Source: Prorocentrum cordatum
Taxonomy: Eukaryota; Sar; Dinophyceae; Prorocentrales; Prorocentraceae
Length of the DNA: 64,000 nucleotides
Assembly: GCA_963575745.1 (NCBI GenBank)
Contig: CAUYUJ010017797.1
Location: forward strand, 26,253-90,252
Direction of reading: 5' to 3'
The notes beneath the pieces were generated by a model. The model searched no databases and was not told where the DNA came from. It saw nothing but the letters and a program-made list of their open reading frames with translations. The position numbers and the translations under genes were made by a program. Numbering within the stretch: position 1 is the first letter of the stretch; each line of letters starts with the position of its first letter. Positions 21,179 to 33,108 of the stretch are shown piece by piece.

Positions 21179-21526
21179 CCTCCTCCTCCTCCTCCTCCTC
21201 CTCCTCCTCCCTCTCCTCCCTCTCCTCCCTCTCCTCCCTCTCCTCCCTCTCCTCCCTCTCCTCCCTCTCCTCCCTCTCCTCCCTCTCCTCCCTCTCCTCC
21301 CTCTCCTCCCTCGCCTCCCTCTCCTCCCTCTCCTCCCTCTCCTCCCTCTCCTCCCTCTCCTCCCTCTCCTCCCTCTCCTCCCTCTCCTCCCTCTCCTCCC
21401 NNNNNNNNNNNNNNNNNNNNNNNNNNNNNNNNNNNNNNNNNNNNNNNNNNNNNNNNNNNNNNNNNNNNNNNNNNNNNNNNNNNNNNNNNNNNNNNNNNNN
21501 ATCATCATCATCATCAGCAGCAGCAG

Positions 21527-24486: not shown

Positions 24487-25269
24487 AACACAACTGACAG
24501 TCCGCAGTGCATGGGATACAGCTTATGGTAATTCAATGTGCTCCTGTAAACATTGCCCGATGCAGCAATTATCTTTCGTTGCAGTCATGCTGGCGTCCGT
24601 GCTCGCTGCAATTAGCAGAGCGAGCAACAACGTTATGAATTGCCCGCTGCATGTTCTTTAAACAAGCTGCAGCATTCGTGAGAACGATGCATCCCACAAG
24701 GTCCCGGCCCCCCTCCCGCACTCACCACGTCAAACGTTACCGCCCGCATCCACCACGGCAGTGTACCGACCCCCAAACACAAACTGTTGCGGGCGCCGCC
24801 TCCTGTCACAAGCGCGACCATCGCCACCGTCACCCAGCGGCCACGAGGCTTCAGGCCCGCCGGCCCTCCCCCGCGAGGCCGCACCCCCCCTGCGGCGAGA
24901 CCCCGCGGGCCCCCGTTCAGCCAGAAGGAGAACACTGCCGGCGTCCGGCGCCGCCCTCGCCGACCCGAGCACCCCACCGGGGGTCGGGATACGGCGGGCG
25001 TGTTCGCGCGCGCAAAACATGTCGCGCACCTGTCAGACGTTACACCTGGTGATGCGACCGCTGCCAGCGGCCGCCAGGGAAGGAAGGCCCCCTCCCCGCA
25101 CGCGCTGACCTGCGCGGCGTTCTCGCACCTGCGACGCACACGTTCGGCCGACCCGAGGCAGGACCCCTCGCAGCCGGTGCGCATCGCCTCTTGCACGGCG
25201 AAGTCCACGCCGGCGCCCATCCCAAATTCTCCCCGGTAACCCCACCGGGGCCCAGGGTGTGGTGGGTGG
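24487..25269. other. Spacer left of the DIRS-like element
   Basis: A minus-strand frame ending at 24633 and entering the 159-bp repeat reads EFGMGAGVDFAVQEAM and then several Cys residues (about 25100-25230). It looks mildly coding-like but matches nothing I know. Confidence 0.35.
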
Positions 25270-25428
25270 GAAACAAACCAACAGCAACCGCTGTCGCCAA
25301 CGCGCTTTGCTCGCACGATCCAATTGCGCGCTCTGATGCGCGCAGTCCCTGCGAGCGCGCGCGGGCGTCCCCTTCTGTCATGATTATGGTTCCCTGACCC
25401 GAGCCTCCCCGAGCCTAAAGTCAACGCA
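25270..25428 (-). repeat. 159-bp direct repeat, distal copy
   Basis: Identical base for base to 32950-33108, from gaaacaaaccaacagcaacc through to tcaacgca. Flanking bases differ on both sides. Confidence 0.95.
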
Positions 25429-25916
25429 TAATCACCGACAGCCTATTCCCCGCGCCGCGCCCTGCGCGGCCCCTGGCAACTTTCGCGCGCCGCGAATCGC
25501 ACGCGCCCCGCCGCGGCGCGAAGCGCACGCGGGCGGCCCGCTCCTCCGCGCGCGCGCGCGCTCCACCTGCGAACACGGCGCGCGACGGCCCCATCCTCCC
25601 ACCCATTCCCCCAACCCATACCCCGTCCCCCGACCCCAGAAAGTGCAACGGTGCTCCGGGGGTGCAGAACGACCTTGGGGTGACCAAACCCCCCGAATGG
25701 AACACCTGCGTGAAGAAGGCAAGACCCTGGCGTGGCTCGCCAGTAATGCCGCTCTCCCCAACGCTGCTCTGGCTCCGCGTTTCTGCACCCCCAACGCTGT
25801 TCTGGGTCCGACGCCGCTCCGCAATCGCGCGTCGATGTACACGGCGCCCCGTGTCTGAGGCATGCCCGTGCCCCGCGGCTGGGCCCGCGCTCACCTCTCC
25901 TGCGCGGACTCCTTCT

Positions 25917-28614
25917 TTACGGCGAATCCACTGAGCCTGGCGCGGCACGCTGCACGCCGCGGCCCACCCCCCGCGAATTGCCCTCGCGGAACGCGCCTTC
26001 CGCGCGCCGTAGCACCCAACGCCACGCGTCTAGTAAGCACCCGCGCCACGCGGCCGGGTCCACTCTCACCTCGCCGGTACGAAAACCATTCTCCCGGGCG
26101 AAGCTATCCTCGCCGAGCCGCCTGGCACCGCGCGAGTGGACGACTCGGGGGAAGGCCGCCCCCGCGCGCGCACGGCGCGCCGTGAGATCCCGTCCGACCA
26201 GTTGCTTTTCGAGTCTACCCACTCGAGCCAGGTGGACATGTCGCAGTGAAACTGGCGCGACACGCTGCACGGCGCGTCCCCCCGCGATTTGCCCTCGCGG
26301 CGCGCGCCTTGAAGAAATTCATAAGCTTGACGCTCCGGTCCAGGGTAGCATGGTCGCACCTGCCACTCACGAAGCTGTGGAGAGCGCTCGTGTTGTCAAG
26401 CACCCACAGGATGCGCCTCCCTCGGCACCTCCGCGCCTCTTGCGCCAGGACAATGGGGACCATGGCCCCCTCACAGAGGGCGATCGGATTCGCGCCCCTC
26501 TCCCGGTCCGCCGGCGAGAAACCCCACTCCGCGAGTATGGCATCGTCGAATACACACCATCCTCCCACACGCTCCCCTGTCAAGCAATCGACCAGGAGGT
26601 AGCCGCCTGTGGGCGCGGTCGCCCCGTCAGCCCGCGCGTCGCTTGCGATCACAATCAGCGGACACGAGGGCGGGCTCACGTCGACGCTTCTCTTCGGGGC
26701 AAGGTCTATTACAAATTCGAAGTAATCGAAGCACCGCCGAATCGCGTGGGATAACGCCCACGGAGGCGCGTCAGTGTACTGCCTCTGCTTCAGCGGCGCC
26801 ATCGCGGCGCTGCCGACGCCGTTGAACATCGCGGAGGACGACCACTGCAGAATGCCCCGGAGCTTCGAGGCCTCCGCTGGTGTCAGGCTGTTCCGCGCAC
26901 GGTGCTCCGCGAGCAGGCCTTTGATTTTGTCAATCATGCTGGCCTTCGGCCAAAAGGAGACCACCCCTCTGCCTTCAAAAACCCGAGACACGTCGTGATC
27001 GACTCCCAGGAATGCCCCAGTGGCGGCCATGCGCTGCTGCTTCGCGCTGGCATTCGGGGTACCCAACTCCGAAAACAAGACGTTGAGTAAAGCCTGTCCC
27101 GAGCCTTTCGCCAATCCGAGGTCCCCAAGACTGCCATCATCGACATACATTGTGTGCAACAATGCCGCCACGCGCCTGGCAGCGGCTTCCAGAAAGGCAG
27201 ACCACCGCATGAAATTCATAACACTCGACGACAAGCCGAACAGCATGGCGAACGCAGTCAAGTATCGCCACTCCCCGCTGCGCGGTTCCCGCGCCGCAAT
27301 GACGTTATATCGCAGCTGCGCGGGATTGACCGGCACGGACCTGTATGCGCCCGGCAGGTCCTCGCCTCCAGTCTCAAGGGTTAAGCCCTCATCGGCAAAG
27401 CCTCCCGCCGCAGCTTCCTGCCTGAGGGCGCACGCCAAACACCGGGCCGGACCACGCCCCTTGGACACCGGAGGGGCCCACTAGGCCCACACGAACGGAC
27501 CCGGGGGAACGGCCCGCGGGAAACCCGCGACACACCGGCCGGCGGGGAGGGGGAAAAGGCCACCTCCGGTGTTTGGCGTACCTCCCGACCGCTGCCTCAA
27601 GACTTTGCCATACAATGCAGGCGTGAACGCTGATGGCAAGTGCCACTTCTCAGGGTACACCGTCGCGCCGTTCTGCCCACCGGCTTTAGCATCGTCTATC
27701 CGCCGACGCTTGCCGTTCTGCTGCACGTGCACGAACGACGGCACGGCCGCCCAGCGCCCGGCGCCGTACTCGCGGTCCATCGCGGCCAGCGACGCCGGAG
27801 GAGCAGCCCAGCCCTTCTCGCATTCCTTCAAGCATGATTCCCAAAGAAACTCAGCCTCAGGATCAACCCGTCGCTTGTCCCTGGAACGTAAAAGCGCGGT
27901 GGACTCCGCCAACAAGCGGTCTTCAGAAACAGGTTCCGAACTTTCGCACCGCTCCCAGACACCCGTCTCCTCCAATCGCCCCACGATATTGAAGCCGGTC
28001 ACAAATCTCTGGGCCAGCTGCCAATCCGGCCAACCCATCACCCAAGTCAGAACACAAATCAGCGCGATGTGGGTGTTCTGCGCCACGGCATGTACTGAGG
28101 GGCTTTGCCAGAGCCGAAGGGCGCGGGACACCGGCGCCAGCCTTTGACTAAGCTCCTTCAACGCCCCGGCGCAAGACTCGCGCCACTGCCTCAGCCGATT
28201 ACCACCGGCCCACGCGAACGCAACCGTGGCAAAGGCAGCATACTTCAAATCAACGGGTGCCATGTACTCATCGTCGAATGGCAATCGCCCCGCGCTCGCG
28301 AATTCGATGCATTGAGCGAGGTGTGCCCGCTCCCCCACGCCGAGTTCGATAACCGGCGCCAGCGCTAGCCTGTGGTCGAGCACGCCTGCCTGGCGACCCA
28401 ACACGGCGCTCGCGCGCCCCTTGGAATTTCTGCCCAGAGAACATCCCAGAGGTAGTCCTTCGTCCTGCAGCTCCGCCCAGATGGCGAAATCAACGAATGG
28501 CGAAGTATTCAACAAATCTTGCAAGAACGGGATGGGAAAGCCCACCAGCCACTCTTCCGGAAAGGACTTCCGAATTTTCACAGCGATGTCCGCCTGGCTC
28601 CATCGCACGCCCAC
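25917..28614 (-). CDS. DIRS-like Pol: reverse transcriptase and RNase H, five exons
   Basis: Inferred exons are 28614-27582, 27413-26308, 26251-26181, 26121-25997 and 25936-25917. They sum to 2355 bases, a 784-residue frame. The N-terminal domain reads PDWQLAQRFVTGFNIVGRLE. RT boxes are RRIDDAKAGGQNGATV, EDLPGAYRSVPV, the catalytic TMYVDDGSLGDL and FLGVDHDVS. RNase H follows with VIASDARADGA, NPIALCEGAMVPIV and ILWVLDNTSALHSF, then after splicing CDMSTWLEWVDSKSNWSDGI. The protein would copy element RNA into cDNA and degrade the template. Without splicing the frame is broken at three introns. The first exon may extend upstream of the chosen ATG. The three frame repairs make the exon model much stronger than a simple pseudogene reading. 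Confidence 0.72.
25937..25996 (-). other. Candidate introner copy a (GC-AG, 60 bp)
   Basis: On the minus strand it starts gcgcgttccgcgagggcaa and ends gtgcagcgtgccgcgccag. It is a diverged copy of 26252-26307. Its length is a multiple of three and it lacks a stop, so the frame alone does not prove splicing. Confidence 0.5.
26122..26180 (-). other. Candidate intron in Pol (GC-AG, 59 bp)
   Basis: It starts gcgcgccgtgcgcgcg and ends cgcgcggtgccag. Removal joins the RNase H end WSDGIS to RRLGEDSFARENGF in frame. Confidence 0.6.
26252..26307 (-). other. Candidate introner copy b (GC-AG, 56 bp, phase 0)
   Basis: It starts gcgcgcgccgcgagggcaaa and ends gtgcagcgtgtcgcgccag. Removal joins NFFK to FHCDMSTW and restores the RNase H domain. 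It is homologous along its whole length to 25937-25996. Confidence 0.68.
27414..27581 (-). other. Introner-like intron in RT with 14-bp inverted repeats (GT-AG, 168 bp, phase 1)
   Basis: On the minus strand the donor is gggag|gtacgcc and the acceptor is caggaag|ctgcgg. Just inside the ends lie acgccaaacaccgg and its exact complement (27566-27579 and 27432-27445). An in-frame stop at 27481-27483 lies inside. Splicing restores the RT frame (RQRSG to AAAGGFADEG). Confidence 0.68.
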
Positions 28615-28843
28615 GACGCTGGGGCACGCGACCCCACTGGTGACTGCCCCTTCTGCCGCGGCGGGCGGCGCGGCAGCGGGTGCGTTTCAATCGCCCTTGC
28701 GGCCGCGCTTGCCGCCGTCGGCCGCGCCCCCGCTCGCGCTCCTCGCGTCGCAAACTACAACGCCGGGTGTTCCGAACATTCGGCGCTAACCGTCGCCTTT
28801 CCCGGACCCAGGGCGCCCCCGGACCCGGGCCACCCCCCTTAAG

Positions 28844-30176
28844 CTAACAGGGAAACCAAAAACTGAGACCCGGGCTCCTGGTGCACTTGAGGGCGCAGTG
28901 GTTCGACACGCCACACAAGCGCCCCGTCTTGTTGAGCACGACGGAACAGACGTGCTTATACCCGCGAGGGCACGGCTCGGAGCACTCCCCGGCGTTGAAC
29001 TTGCGACACACCTGGGTTCCGTCTTTCAACCGATCGCCCAACTGCGCGCCCTTGCCACCTGTCCGCTGGCTCCGCCCGACGCTCGTCGGCGGCCGCTGCG
29101 GCCCGGGAGCTGGCGGTGAGGGCGGGCTCCACATGACCTCGCGAGTCTGCAAGCCCTCGCGGATTATCTTCCCGACGCTCAGCTCGCTGGTGCGGACCCT
29201 GTCCGTCCACCAAGCGCGCTCCTCCTCGTCCCGACGCACGACGTTAGGCAGCGCTATCGAGAACGGCATCGCACTGGCGTACTTGACCACACGGAAATGG
29301 TAGGCCATCGCGACATCCAACGGAATCTGCACGAAATCCGTCGTATCCGAAGACGCCTTCTCTGGCGTTCCGGGCGCCGGGTCAATCGGCTTCACCCCAG
29401 CGCGCGCGTATGCCACCATGAGAGCCTGGTGCAACGCGATATAGGTTTTCAAGTCCTTCGCGGGATCCGGATCTTCCTTGTCATCGCACACGAATTCGAC
29501 ATCCCCAATGCGCTGCCGCTTCCTGGCAGCCCTCGCGGCATTCAGCAACGTGCGGACCTTCCATACACTCATCATCGTCACCTGGCGCCTGCCGACTCTG
29601 GGGGGCCGCGCGCGCGACGCGGTCACCCCCTCCGCGTGCAGTGGGACGCGCCTGCCCAGCTCCCTGCTGATCTTACTGACCAACGCTTCGGACGGCTCAC
29701 ACTCCGCTGGGTACGCCATCTTATACCGAGCGAAGAACTGCTCGCTCAATTCAGCGAGCTGCGGCGACGGCAATGGGACATCGTCGCTCTCGTCCAAACC
29801 GCGCCTCTTCCGGGTCTCGGACTCCCGGGCGGCATCGCACACGGCTTTCCACGCCTGCCGCACTACGCGCTCGAACTGCGGCGCGGGCCAGGCAGGACCC
29901 CCCCCCGCGCAGGCGAAGGCCGCGCCTGGCGCACGCGGGCAGCTGTCCCAGCCTCCTCTCGAGATCCGGCACGCGCTCGAGGATCGGCGCCCACTCGTTC
30001 TCGCTCGTGACGGCATGCGCGAAATCGACCAACGTCTCTAGACCCACGGTTTCGACCAGGTGGGTGGCGATGCGCTCATCAAACTGATACTTCGCGGCCA
30101 GCTCTCTGAATTGTGCAGCGGCGTCGCGAGCGCCGACGCGCCCCGGCAGCGCAATGCCGTCAACTGACAAAGACAT
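28844..30176 (-). CDS. DIRS-like Gag with CCCH-type Cys/His cluster
   Basis: ATG at 30176 opens MSLSVDGIALPGRVGARDAA, an N-terminal helical region (AAKYQFDERIATHLVETVG). After a candidate 61-bp intron the frame continues FERVVRQAWKAVCDAA and later KDLKTYIALHQALMVAYAR. The C-terminus has CRKFNAGECSEPCPRGYKHV, then further Cys/His residues (CGVSNHCALKC). This is a nucleic-acid-binding cluster typical of Gag from this element type. Spliced length is 423 residues. Gag would package element RNA into a particle. It lies between the recombinase and Pol on the same strand, with about 230 bases of spacer before Pol. Without the intron, the frame shift could instead reflect an extra G in the 9-G run inside the same segment. 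Confidence 0.65.
29876..29936 (-). other. Candidate intron in Gag (GC-AG, 61 bp, phase 0)
   Basis: On the minus strand it starts gcgtgcgccaggcgcgg and ends ccgcgccgcag, with ggcgcgg/ccgcgcc as inverted ends. Removal joins LGQLP to FERVVRQ in frame. A single-base error in the internal 9-G run is the rival explanation. Confidence 0.45.
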
Positions 30177-30834
30177 ACCGAGAACCACACGTGTCGCTCC
30201 GCTAAACCTACTCTCTGGACCGCGTTCGAGCCCACCTCGGGGCGCGCATACGCATCCGTTAAGTTGGCATTCGCTGGCAGGCCCACGCGCAACTCCGCGC
30301 GTCTCCGCCGCGATGACGTCACCACCTCACGCCGGGGCTGCCCGGCCGCGCAACTTTTCACACGCCGCGCACACCAGGGCTCCCTCCGGGAGCGCCGGGA
30401 ACCACTGCAGATCACTCAATCCATTCTGACATAGGTTCGTCACTGGCCCGAACTCACTGTCCGTCCAGGCTCTGGACTTTTTGAGGCGACGAATTACGGG
30501 CATCGCGACGTGATATCGAGGCCCCATAACCTCCCTTACCCGGGTAGCCCTCCCAGGCTCAGACTGCACGTACCCGATCGCGCCCCGCGGCTCGGGCGAC
30601 GGGCCCACGGCTCGCGACGCGCGCGCGGATGATCCCTCCGCAACCTGCCTGACTGGCGGCGCGCAGTGCGCTGGCGCGCCATCTGAGCCCTTTACGTCAC
30701 ATTGACCCAACTCCGCGCCCTGCGCTGCCTCGTCACCTGGAAGCGCGGTCACCGCGCGACCGGCGCAGTCAACTCCCCGCGCTTGGAACGCGGCCGGGCC
30801 TGCACGGGTTGCGTCTCCCGGCCGCACCGACACT

Positions 30835-32931
30835 TCATCTCCCCTGGACCTGGGGATGGAGACAGCCTCCAATGCCGCCCACGCCCGGGCACAATACCGC
30901 TGGGCCGCGCGATCGACCCGCGGTTCGCCCTGCGCGGCCCGCAATGGCAACCGACGCCGGACTGGCGCGCGCTCCCGCCTCTGCTGGTCGCTTGTTTTTG
31001 CCGGCAACTTTCGGCGCTCTGCGTGGACTCGCAGGCGCAGGCAACGCGTTCCCACGCAAACCGCCCGGCGCTTTACCGCGCCCCCCCCGCTTTGCACGCG
31101 GTGCCCCCGACGCGAGGGTTTGCGCAGCGCGCGCACGCGCGCCCGGCGCTTCGGCGCCCGCCCCCCCCTCACCGCTCTTACCCGCGGCGCCCCCGTCGGC
31201 AGGACCCCGACAATTGGGTGGAGGCGCGCCCGGCGCTTTACCGCGCCCCACCCGCTGTCCACGCGGGGCCACGATTATCCGGAGAAACTTCTGCCGCCTC
31301 AACTCCTCGACGACCGACGGGGGCAAGAACGCGGCCTTCTCACGAACGGTCGACACCGCCACCCGCTGCTGCGCCTCTTTCTCTAGGTCGGCCAACATTA
31401 CTTTTCCTGGCGCAGAACTCGCCCAGCATCGCACTTGCTCCCACTGCACTGGGGCCTCCAGATCGGTCCGCAGGCACGACAACACTCCGGCCATGTGCAG
31501 GCGCGTGCACATCTCGGCTTGCCGCCGACGCGCATTATACACGATCGGCATCTGGTTCCGACGGGAGTTGTCTCCCCCCTCCGTCCAACCGCCCGAGATG
31601 ACTCGGGCTTCCCAGTCCAATTGTATCGCGCTCGCCCATGTAGGCCCAGCCCGGCGCAAACTGTACGAAGTCACAAGATCCAACTGGGAATCGTCCGCTA
31701 GCGAGCCTCGGAATACTTCCTTCAGCGATCGGTTAAAGGCACCCAACTTCACCGGCGCGCCGGAAACTGGATCGAAGACGAGCCCCGTCGGCACAGCCCT
31801 TCCTGCTCGATCTTCCCGCGCCGCCAACTTGTGCCAACCATCCCACAAGGCGTCAGCGGCGGACCGCGCGCCACCTAGCCGCCTCGGCAAGCACCAATCG
31901 AACGAAGGTCGCCCCTGTCGCTTTCCCTGCTTCCCCCTCGATGCGCGGAACCAGCAAAAATAAACAGACTTCTCTAAAGGCCTAGAGCGCAGCAGGTGCG
32001 TGTACCTCACCCACGCGAATACCACCGCCAGCATCCCAGCCGCGAGCATGACTTGCCCAGGCGTTCTCGCGCCATCCAGGAAATCGATCACATGGTAAAT
32101 CATCTCGGGTTCGACGACAGTGGCCTGGGCCGGCGGTGCTACGGTTCCACTGCCTGGATCACGTGGCACAGGGCGAAACGCATCGTCCAGGCAGAAAGGC
32201 GCTTTCAAATGTACGCACATCCACTTCAAGGCGTTCCAGATCCTGACGCCGGACGTCCGTGCGATCGAGAGCTTATGCACGAACTCGGCGACTGCCATGG
32301 GTTGCCGCGCCAGACTCGTCGCCGGCTGCCCTTGCCGGCCCGCCCACTCGGCCCACTGCCCCCACACGCGCAAGGCCGTGCGCAGCGTCCCGGATTCGAA
32401 ATTACTCAGCCTAAACACCGCCGCGGACGAGACGTCGGCGAGCATCTCGGCCTGCGCCTCCTGCAACCCCTGCCCGAGGCCGCTTTCCGGGCGCCATTCA
32501 AGCGACACTCGAACTGCGCTGACCGCCAGCTGAACGCGCCCCTCACGCTCTGCCGCCTCCGTCGCCACTGCGGCACAGCGTCTCGGCCGACCGCGGCGCG
32601 CGGCGGTAGGCCCACGCCCTTTCCCCGCCGCGGCCCCCGCGCTCACGGCGGGCGCGGCGGCCGCCGCCGCGCCGCCAAATCGCCCCTCCGCGCAAATGCC
32701 ATGCGCGGGCACCAGCCACGGCGTCACCCGCGCCACGTCCCGAGCCACGGCCCAGGCCGTGGGCACTCCACACTGCTCCGCCTCGTCCGTCGAGCAAAAC
32801 AAATGCGCTAAATCGCCAGCCGACTCCAGTCCCTCTCTCTGCACGAGCGCAGAAAGGGACTCGCGCTCGGAGGAATCGACCCTCCAATCTAAGAACTCTT
32901 CGATGAAGAGCTCTCCGCGCTGCCCGGCCAT
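30835..32931 (-). CDS. Tyrosine recombinase of the DIRS-like element
   Basis: The start is taken at the internal ATG (MAGQRGELFIEEFLDW). The frame is open further upstream to 33003, inside the 159-bp repeat. A helical core-binding region (ALRVWGQWAEWAGRQGQPAT) precedes the catalytic half. Catalytic candidates are Arg in AWVRYTHLLRSRP, the box TSYSLRRAGPTW in place of the usual HxLRR, Trp in GGWTEG, and a terminal Tyr in VYNARRRQAEM. This enzyme would integrate the circular cDNA intermediate. The C-terminal third (below about 31300) becomes Gly/Ala/Arg-rich and contains two related short GC-rich inserts, so the real 3' end may be spliced differently. Confidence 0.65.
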   Translation of the reverse strand: MAGQRGELFIEEFLDWRVDSSERESLSALVQREGLESAGDLAHLFCSTDEAEQCGVPTAWAVARDVARVTPWLVPAHGICAEGRFGGAAAAAAPAVSAGAAAGKGRGPTAARRGRPRRCAAVATEAAEREGRVQLAVSAVRVSLEWRPESGLGQGLQEAQAEMLADVSSAAVFRLSNFESGTLRTALRVWGQWAEWAGRQGQPATSLARQPMAVAEFVHKLSIARTSGVRIWNALKWMCVHLKAPFCLDDAFRPVPRDPGSGTVAPPAQATVVEPEMIYHVIDFLDGARTPGQVMLAAGMLAVVFAWVRYTHLLRSRPLEKSVYFCWFRASRGKQGKRQGRPSFDWCLPRRLGGARSAADALWDGWHKLAAREDRAGRAVPTGLVFDPVSGAPVKLGAFNRSLKEVFRGSLADDSQLDLVTSYSLRRAGPTWASAIQLDWEARVISGGWTEGGDNSRRNQMPIVYNARRRQAEMCTRLHMAGVLSCLRTDLEAPVQWEQVRCWASSAPGKVMLADLEKEAQQRVAVSTVREKAAFLPPSVVEELRRQKFLRIIVAPRGQRVGRGKAPGAPPPNCRGPADGGAAGKSGEGGAGAEAPGARARAAQTLASGAPRAKRGGRGKAPGGLRGNALPAPASPRRAPKVAGKNKRPAEAGARASPASVAIAGRAGRTAGRSRGPAVLCPGVGGIGGCLHPQVQGR
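31062..31249 (-). repeat. 23-bp motif repeated 165 bp apart in the recombinase 3' part
   Basis: cgcccggcgctttaccgcgc plus ccc occurs at 31062-31084 and 31227-31249. Each copy is surrounded by partial inverted repeats (cgcaaacc/ggtttgcg; gggtgg/ccaccc). These may be further introner-like inserts, but the frame does not demand it. Confidence 0.5.
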
Positions 32932-32949
32932 CAAGCAGCACACAAGCAA

Positions 32950-33108
32950 GAAACAAACCAACAGCAACCGCTGTCGCCAACGCGCTTTGCTCGCACGATC
33001 CAATTGCGCGCTCTGATGCGCGCAGTCCCTGCGAGCGCGCGCGGGCGTCCCCTTCTGTCATGATTATGGTTCCCTGACCCGAGCCTCCCCGAGCCTAAAG
33101 TCAACGCA
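32950..33108 (-). repeat. 159-bp direct repeat, proximal copy
   Basis: Perfect match to 25270-25428. The open frame of the recombinase extends into this copy. Confidence 0.95.

Follow-up and report, generated by a model that had tools for sequence, protein, structure and literature searches.

A DIRS-like retrotransposon of Prorocentrum cordatum multiplies with intron-like inserts and carries the remnant of a duplicated pol end

Organization of the Element

The window analyzed here is a 64-kb stretch (64,000 nucleotides) of the genome of the red-tide dinoflagellate Prorocentrum cordatum, and it contains a DIRS-like retrotransposon on the minus strand. Ten 9.9-kb genomic loci from the searched assembly (4.128 Gb in 21,875 contigs) were aligned with the window and gave a common 5' end at 33108 and a common 3' limit at ~24924; the ends were read in single loci. 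The features are listed below from the 5' end of the element.

24924–33108, minus strand: DIRS-like retrotransposon, window copy, without the 3' repeat B2 (alignment of the ten loci with the window)
32950–33108, minus strand: A1 repeat, 159 bp at the 5' terminus, 100% identical to 25270–25428
30838–33057, minus strand: ORF with tyrosine-recombinase-like motifs (read by eye, conserved in A2; no Pfam match)
28847–30037, minus strand: gag-like frame with a Cys/His cluster (homology to the family-2 gag frame)
29589–29651, minus strand: insert d, 63 bp, GC-AG, 9-bp direct repeat at its flanks; exactly missing in L010, L014, and L017
27596–28686, minus strand: pol frame, first part (colinear with the family-2 ORF)
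27422–27595, minus strand: TIR insert, 174 bp with GC-AG ends and perfect inverted repeats of 14 bp; missing from both P0023 and the family-2 ORF
26308–27421, minus strand: exon B, reverse transcriptase (YVDD) and most of RNase H (alignment; model of residues 115–353)
26252–26307, minus strand: insert a, 56 bp, GC-AG (BLAST, frame, and copy comparisons)
26181–26251, minus strand: exon C, terminal part of RNase H (STWLEWVDSKSNWSDGISR; 21 aa aligned with family 2 at 57% identity)
26122–26180, minus strand: insert c, 59 bp with GC-AG ends; missing from family 2 and from six proteins
25997–26121, minus strand: exon D, C-terminus (37 aa aligned with family 2 at 43% identity)
25937–25996, minus strand: insert b, 60 bp, corresponding to a' of the duplicated unit (BLAST, divergent-copy comparisons)
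25830–25936, minus strand: remnant of the duplicated exon D (D') with the stop codon TAA at 25919–25917 (similarity to exon D)
25428–25760, minus strand: B1 repeat, ~333 bp, recurring as B2 behind 24924 in other loci
25270–25428, minus strand: A2 repeat, 159 bp, identical to A1

The split direct repeats follow the plan A1-ORFs-B1A2-B2, with B2 present in eight of the ten other loci and missing from the window copy, and the ORFs run in the order recombinase-like ORF, gag-like frame, and reverse transcriptase (RT)/RNase H. The element is classified as a DIRS-like tyrosine-recombinase retrotransposon, the enzyme names resting on motifs read by eye, homology between families, and a weak structural match. 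Its family has recently multiplied, with dozens of near-identical copies. A second family (family 2) on contig C19700 displays the same repeat plan and ORF order, its A repeats (218 bp) being 99.5% and its B repeats (227 bp) 99.1% identical. The recombinase-like ORF shares 33.7% identity with the homologous family-2 ORF (E 1e-98), and the gag-like frame, taken together with 29994–30197 in another frame, shares 32.6% with the family-2 gag frame (E 9e-63). A YVDD motif and RNase H-like blocks are visible in the protein alignment. Pfam returned no family for the window pieces or for the recombinase ORF and gave no lead for the family-2 ORFs, and RVT_1 reached an E of 0.12 for the protein P0004, short of the cut-off. 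The model of exon B residues 115–353 had a pLDDT of 65.8, and its best Foldseek matches were to HIV-1 RT (E 0.0069, none below 0.001); a sequence search of the PDB gave no lead.

Two further observations concern the assembly and its annotation. A run of 100 N, an assembly gap, lies at 21401–21500 of the window and adjoins dense tandem-repeat arrays. The recombinase-like ORF is contained in the published P. cordatum gene models P0016 and P0018, of which one is named a protein kinase and one has an ATP synthase Pfam domain.

Inserts in pol

A first-pass annotation of this DNA had described a pair of homologous segments, a (26307–26252) and b (25996–25937) on the minus strand. Both the coordinates and the homology are correct, and the similarity lies far beyond chance. 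By BLAST the two are 84% identical over 63 columns (E ~2e-7 within the window), while pairwise alignment gave 50 identical bases out of 56 aligned with four gap columns, a score reached by none of 1000 Markov shuffles. The 22-base core common to both occurs twice in the window (0.02 expected), and no third full copy is found within the 64 kb.

The RT/RNase H frame stops at 26307 and continues in a different register from 26251 onward, so that a interrupts the RNase H frame as proposed. Seven proteins (P0002, P0004, P0005, P0006, P0008, P0009, and P0013) and the uninterrupted family-2 frame (L055) lack the 56 bp and read across this site, and removal of a, an insert with GC-AG ends, restores colinearity with these homologues; donor sites of the host are 51.4% GC according to the accessible part of PMC10666404. 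Placement of both segments within the RNase H gene applies to a, while b lies outside the domain, at the extreme 3' end of the reading frame. The stretch between them holds a further insert, c, which had gone unmentioned. No transposon marks (TIRs or a target-site duplication) were seen on a, and its RNA fold was no better than that of shuffles (z –0.30). A programmed frameshift across a was rejected by reasoning, since 56 bases cannot be skipped in this way.

Insert c is absent from family 2 and from P0004, P0005, P0006, P0008, P0009, and P0013; P0002 is longer by ~25 residues at the position of c and has no addition at a. The TIR insert is missing from P0023, a protein whose sequence stops six residues past the site of a. 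The insert bears AGGCAG at both ends, while the family-2 site reads CGGCAA, not AGGCAG. At the TIR-insert site in L045 the short end repeat is AGGCGA, both ends being changed alike. Genome searches found no TIR insert outside the context of the element: one gave no match, and in the other all 69 matches carry the base that adjoins the TIR in the element, the feature by which they were judged.

When aligned with the family-2 ORF (L055), the window pol is matched in three different frames, and the breaks fall precisely on the inserts. Downstream of a and c, the exons resemble family 2 only in their own frames. In a search with the junction peptide, the best 150 of 1201 candidates were scored. 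Among the matches listed, 78 showed at least 70% identity from residue 1, and 77 of these end at residues 45–51, at the insert; the remaining one, C6345, reaches residue 79 owing to a 23-bp exon deletion together with the insert in one stretch. At least 59 family-2 matches with 42–45% identity run through the site of a, mostly in an 860-codon frame.

Inserts in gag

Insert d in gag is exactly missing in three of the nine fetched copies that cover it (L010, L014, and L017). Reverse transcription of a partly spliced RNA would leave such a product, and we regard this reading as possible, if tentative: the gap is exact at AG/GC...AG/GC, and the three copies have no private SNP in common. However, the 9-bp repeat GGCAGGCGC flanks d, so that template slippage is possible and would yield the same product.

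Two other gaps or frame breaks in the copies were considered. A 56-bp gap in L009 at 28552–28497 was rejected as an intron loss, its ends not being splice-like. A break of the gag frame at 29943–29876 ("e") shows CAG at both ends, and here the window is one base shorter than nine other copies; as an intron candidate, it fails to show GN-AG ends at the junction required by the protein.

In the gag region of family 2 (L076 and L055; C19700), four inserts with GC- or GA-AG-like ends were recognized by inspection in one copy. None lies at the place of a, c, or the TIR insert, and one is located ~10 bases from d. If these family-2 inserts are introns, the two families gained their introns separately.

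Evidence for Splicing

Insert a has the look of a genuine GC-AG intron and is likely to be spliced. Together with c and the TIR insert it combines GC-AG ends, accepted splice sites, with a restored reading frame colinear with the L055 ORF, and without removal of a and c, exons C and D remain unreadable. The acceptor of a, AG/T, counts against an intron, as 79.7% of the published P. cordatum acceptors are AGG in the part of PMC10666404 that is accessible. A protein search for the spliced P. cordatum product found none among the matches listed, a set limited by length.

A dN/dS-type ratio was determined for exons C and D combined. Between the window and six old copies it was 0.38 when read in their own frame, and the two alternative frames gave 1.97 and 0.95; between the window and L045, the corresponding values were 0.58, 1.36, and 1.11. 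Over all pairs, 0.60 was obtained in the own frame, as against 1.11 and 1.01, and one of 300 column shuffles was as low. Among the six old copies alone, exons C and D of the first unit of the tandem duplication described below gave 0.79 and the non-coding second unit 0.61, indicating that dead copies add noise and that base composition alone lowers the ratio; the selection signal thus rests on the comparisons with the window copy and L045. The apparent purifying selection on the exons behind the inserts supports the intron reading.

One observation fits poorly. Mean differences amounted to 7.8% for a, 11.4% for c, 15.3% for exon C, and 18.5% for exon D, so that a is the best conserved part both within and between units, and none of its 56 sites varies in 30 near-identical sequences, compared with 61 variable sites in the 1114 of exon B. 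That a is the slowest-evolving segment is not predicted for a plain intron and counts against the explanation that we prefer. Insert a may carry a signal.

Alternatively, the family could be non-autonomous, with unspliced inserts, a truncated RT/RNase H, and copies mobilized by the proteins of another element. Intact relatives are indeed available in the same genome (the family-2 matches through the a site), and pN/pS among near-identical copies was 0.62, with exon D read one base out of phase. However, exons C and D keep protein-like conservation in their own frames, and family 2 is only ~45% identical in this region, which makes such a dependence improbable in our judgment.

Inheritance of the Inserts

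The whole 441-bp stretch is present at 99–100% identity in all 40 scored copies (88 candidates), each of which carries both a and b. Colonization of the copy after its integration, one of the two options originally offered for the presence of introns in a retroelement, is thereby excluded; the other was partial splicing, which may regulate the element. Among 29 near-identical distinct copies, a and c were found in every one. The TIR insert was present in 28 of them and had disappeared from the remaining copy together with its flanks. Exact removal was seen in 0 of 69 fetched loci for a, 0 of 69 for c, and 0 of 64 for the TIR insert (these loci overlap), and the 27-base junction lacking a did not occur with up to three mismatches in the 4.1-Gb assembly. 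The element therefore multiplied with a, c, and the TIR insert in place; insert d, missing from some copies, behaves differently.

Introns that are spliced efficiently would be kept equally well if the element were amplified as DNA, by segmental duplication or on circles, in which case the RNA template would be irrelevant. Several loci with internal deletions that are shared and have no splicing signature agree with this. On the other hand, the copies have the same element ends in different flanks, the 3' sequence after B2 differing in seven loci (L003, L004, L005, L007, L016, L017, and L018), as the integration of single elements would give, and we consider DNA amplification a poor candidate.

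Tandem Duplication of the pol End

A second full unit of ~311 bp, consisting of a', exon C', c', and exon D', was detected in six of eight divergent copies (L040–L044 and L046), and L039 contains it in part. In the most divergent copy, L045, a and c are present and exon D runs straight into the 3' region without a second unit. The two units of the six divergent copies are 62–70% identical in C, 80–83% in c, and 69–71% in D, and the part behind a' reached local scores of 134–158, compared with at most 36 in 200 shuffles each. In the window, the D' remnant agrees with exon D at 75 of 105 aligned bases, and none of 1000 shuffles was as good.

Because the homology extends beyond b into copies of C, c, and D in six of the eight, b arose by tandem duplication. 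On these sequence comparisons, b is the remnant of a duplicated pol end, masked in the window by a deletion of ~135 bp. The order of events is that a and c were present first, the tandem duplication followed, and the ~135-bp deletion then occurred in the young subfamily. In L023 and L024 the stretch from inside b to B1 is lost, with the same junction in both.

It is hardly credible that a and b derive from separate insertion events of a single introner family, as the first-pass annotation had concluded from their common ends and full-length similarity: although the two are also more alike (82–91%) than the exon parts of both units (62–71%), the homology continues past b through C', c', and D' in the six divergent copies, D' is still visible in the window, and L045 is without the whole second unit, not merely b.

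Discussion

Any sequence that replicates by way of RNA would be expected to shed its introns. Introns or spliceable segments are known to survive replication in Penelope-like elements, in Ogre with its partial splicing, and in the genomic RNA of retroviruses. These differ from the window element in belonging to other element orders and hosts. In the open-access literature, with subscription journals mostly outside, we found no report of introns inside DIRS-like elements, and PMC3783388 and PMC4157794 contain no word beginning with "intron."

The nearest element is SymbioDIRS of Symbiodinium (PMC5890265). As far as its accessible description goes, it is likewise arranged as A-coding-B-A-B repeats, has a separate tyrosine-recombinase ORF (a putative one in the window element) and a dinoflagellate host, and encodes an RT too divergent for Pfam alignments. 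In contrast to the window element, it has a DNMT domain in Pol, none being noticed here, and that part of the description mentions no introns. Ngaro elements, in the accessible portion of PMC8547959, resemble the window element in the arrangement of split direct repeats, A1-[ORFs]-B1A2B2, and encode RT, RNase H, and tyrosine recombinase, enzymes that are putative in the window element. The latter differs in having its recombinase ORF first and at least four intron-like inserts.

Dinoflagellates are known to have introners with TIRs, and introners have also been reported for P. cordatum (PMC9860276, PMC10666404, and PMC11453091, in the parts available). The 174-bp insert resembles the Symbiodinium microadriaticum introners, described in PMC9860276 as having TIRs and target-site duplications, in its TIRs, its short end repeats, and splice sites at the repeat. 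Unlike the introners of P. cordatum (PMC10666404) and S. microadriaticum, it was not found outside the element, and a and b are not separate insertions.

Taken as a whole, an intron-bearing DIRS-like element whose pol end was duplicated and then partly deleted, and which is inherited through unspliced RNA, is the best explanation and in our view a likely one. Short spliceosomal introns (c, a, and the TIR-bearing one) would have come to interrupt the pol gene before the present subfamilies split. A ~311-bp stretch at the gene end, spanning a, C, c, and D, would have been duplicated in tandem to give the a/b pair. In the young subfamily, the deletion of ~135 bp would then have taken away most of the second exon unit. 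We infer that the introns are removed from the translated RNA, joining the last RNase H segment to the enzyme, while the RNA that is reverse transcribed would keep them and pass them on to daughter copies.

A wider reading, which we put forward as doubtful, is that intron-bearing tyrosine-recombinase retrotransposons are a standing feature of P. cordatum. The two families would have gained different short GC/GA-AG introns, one in pol and the other in gag, and would inherit them through unspliced genomic RNA as retroviruses do; a might have been kept since its removal acts as a switch between the full enzyme and a product that lacks the last segment of RNase H.

Two similar adjacent introns need not mean intron transposition, as the older relatives of this element revealed a plain tandem duplication. 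The presence of frames derived from transposable elements inside published P. cordatum gene models matters for the intron counts of this genome. With dozens of near-identical copies that keep their introns, the family makes it testable how dinoflagellate genomic RNA escapes splicing and whether introns regulate an element.
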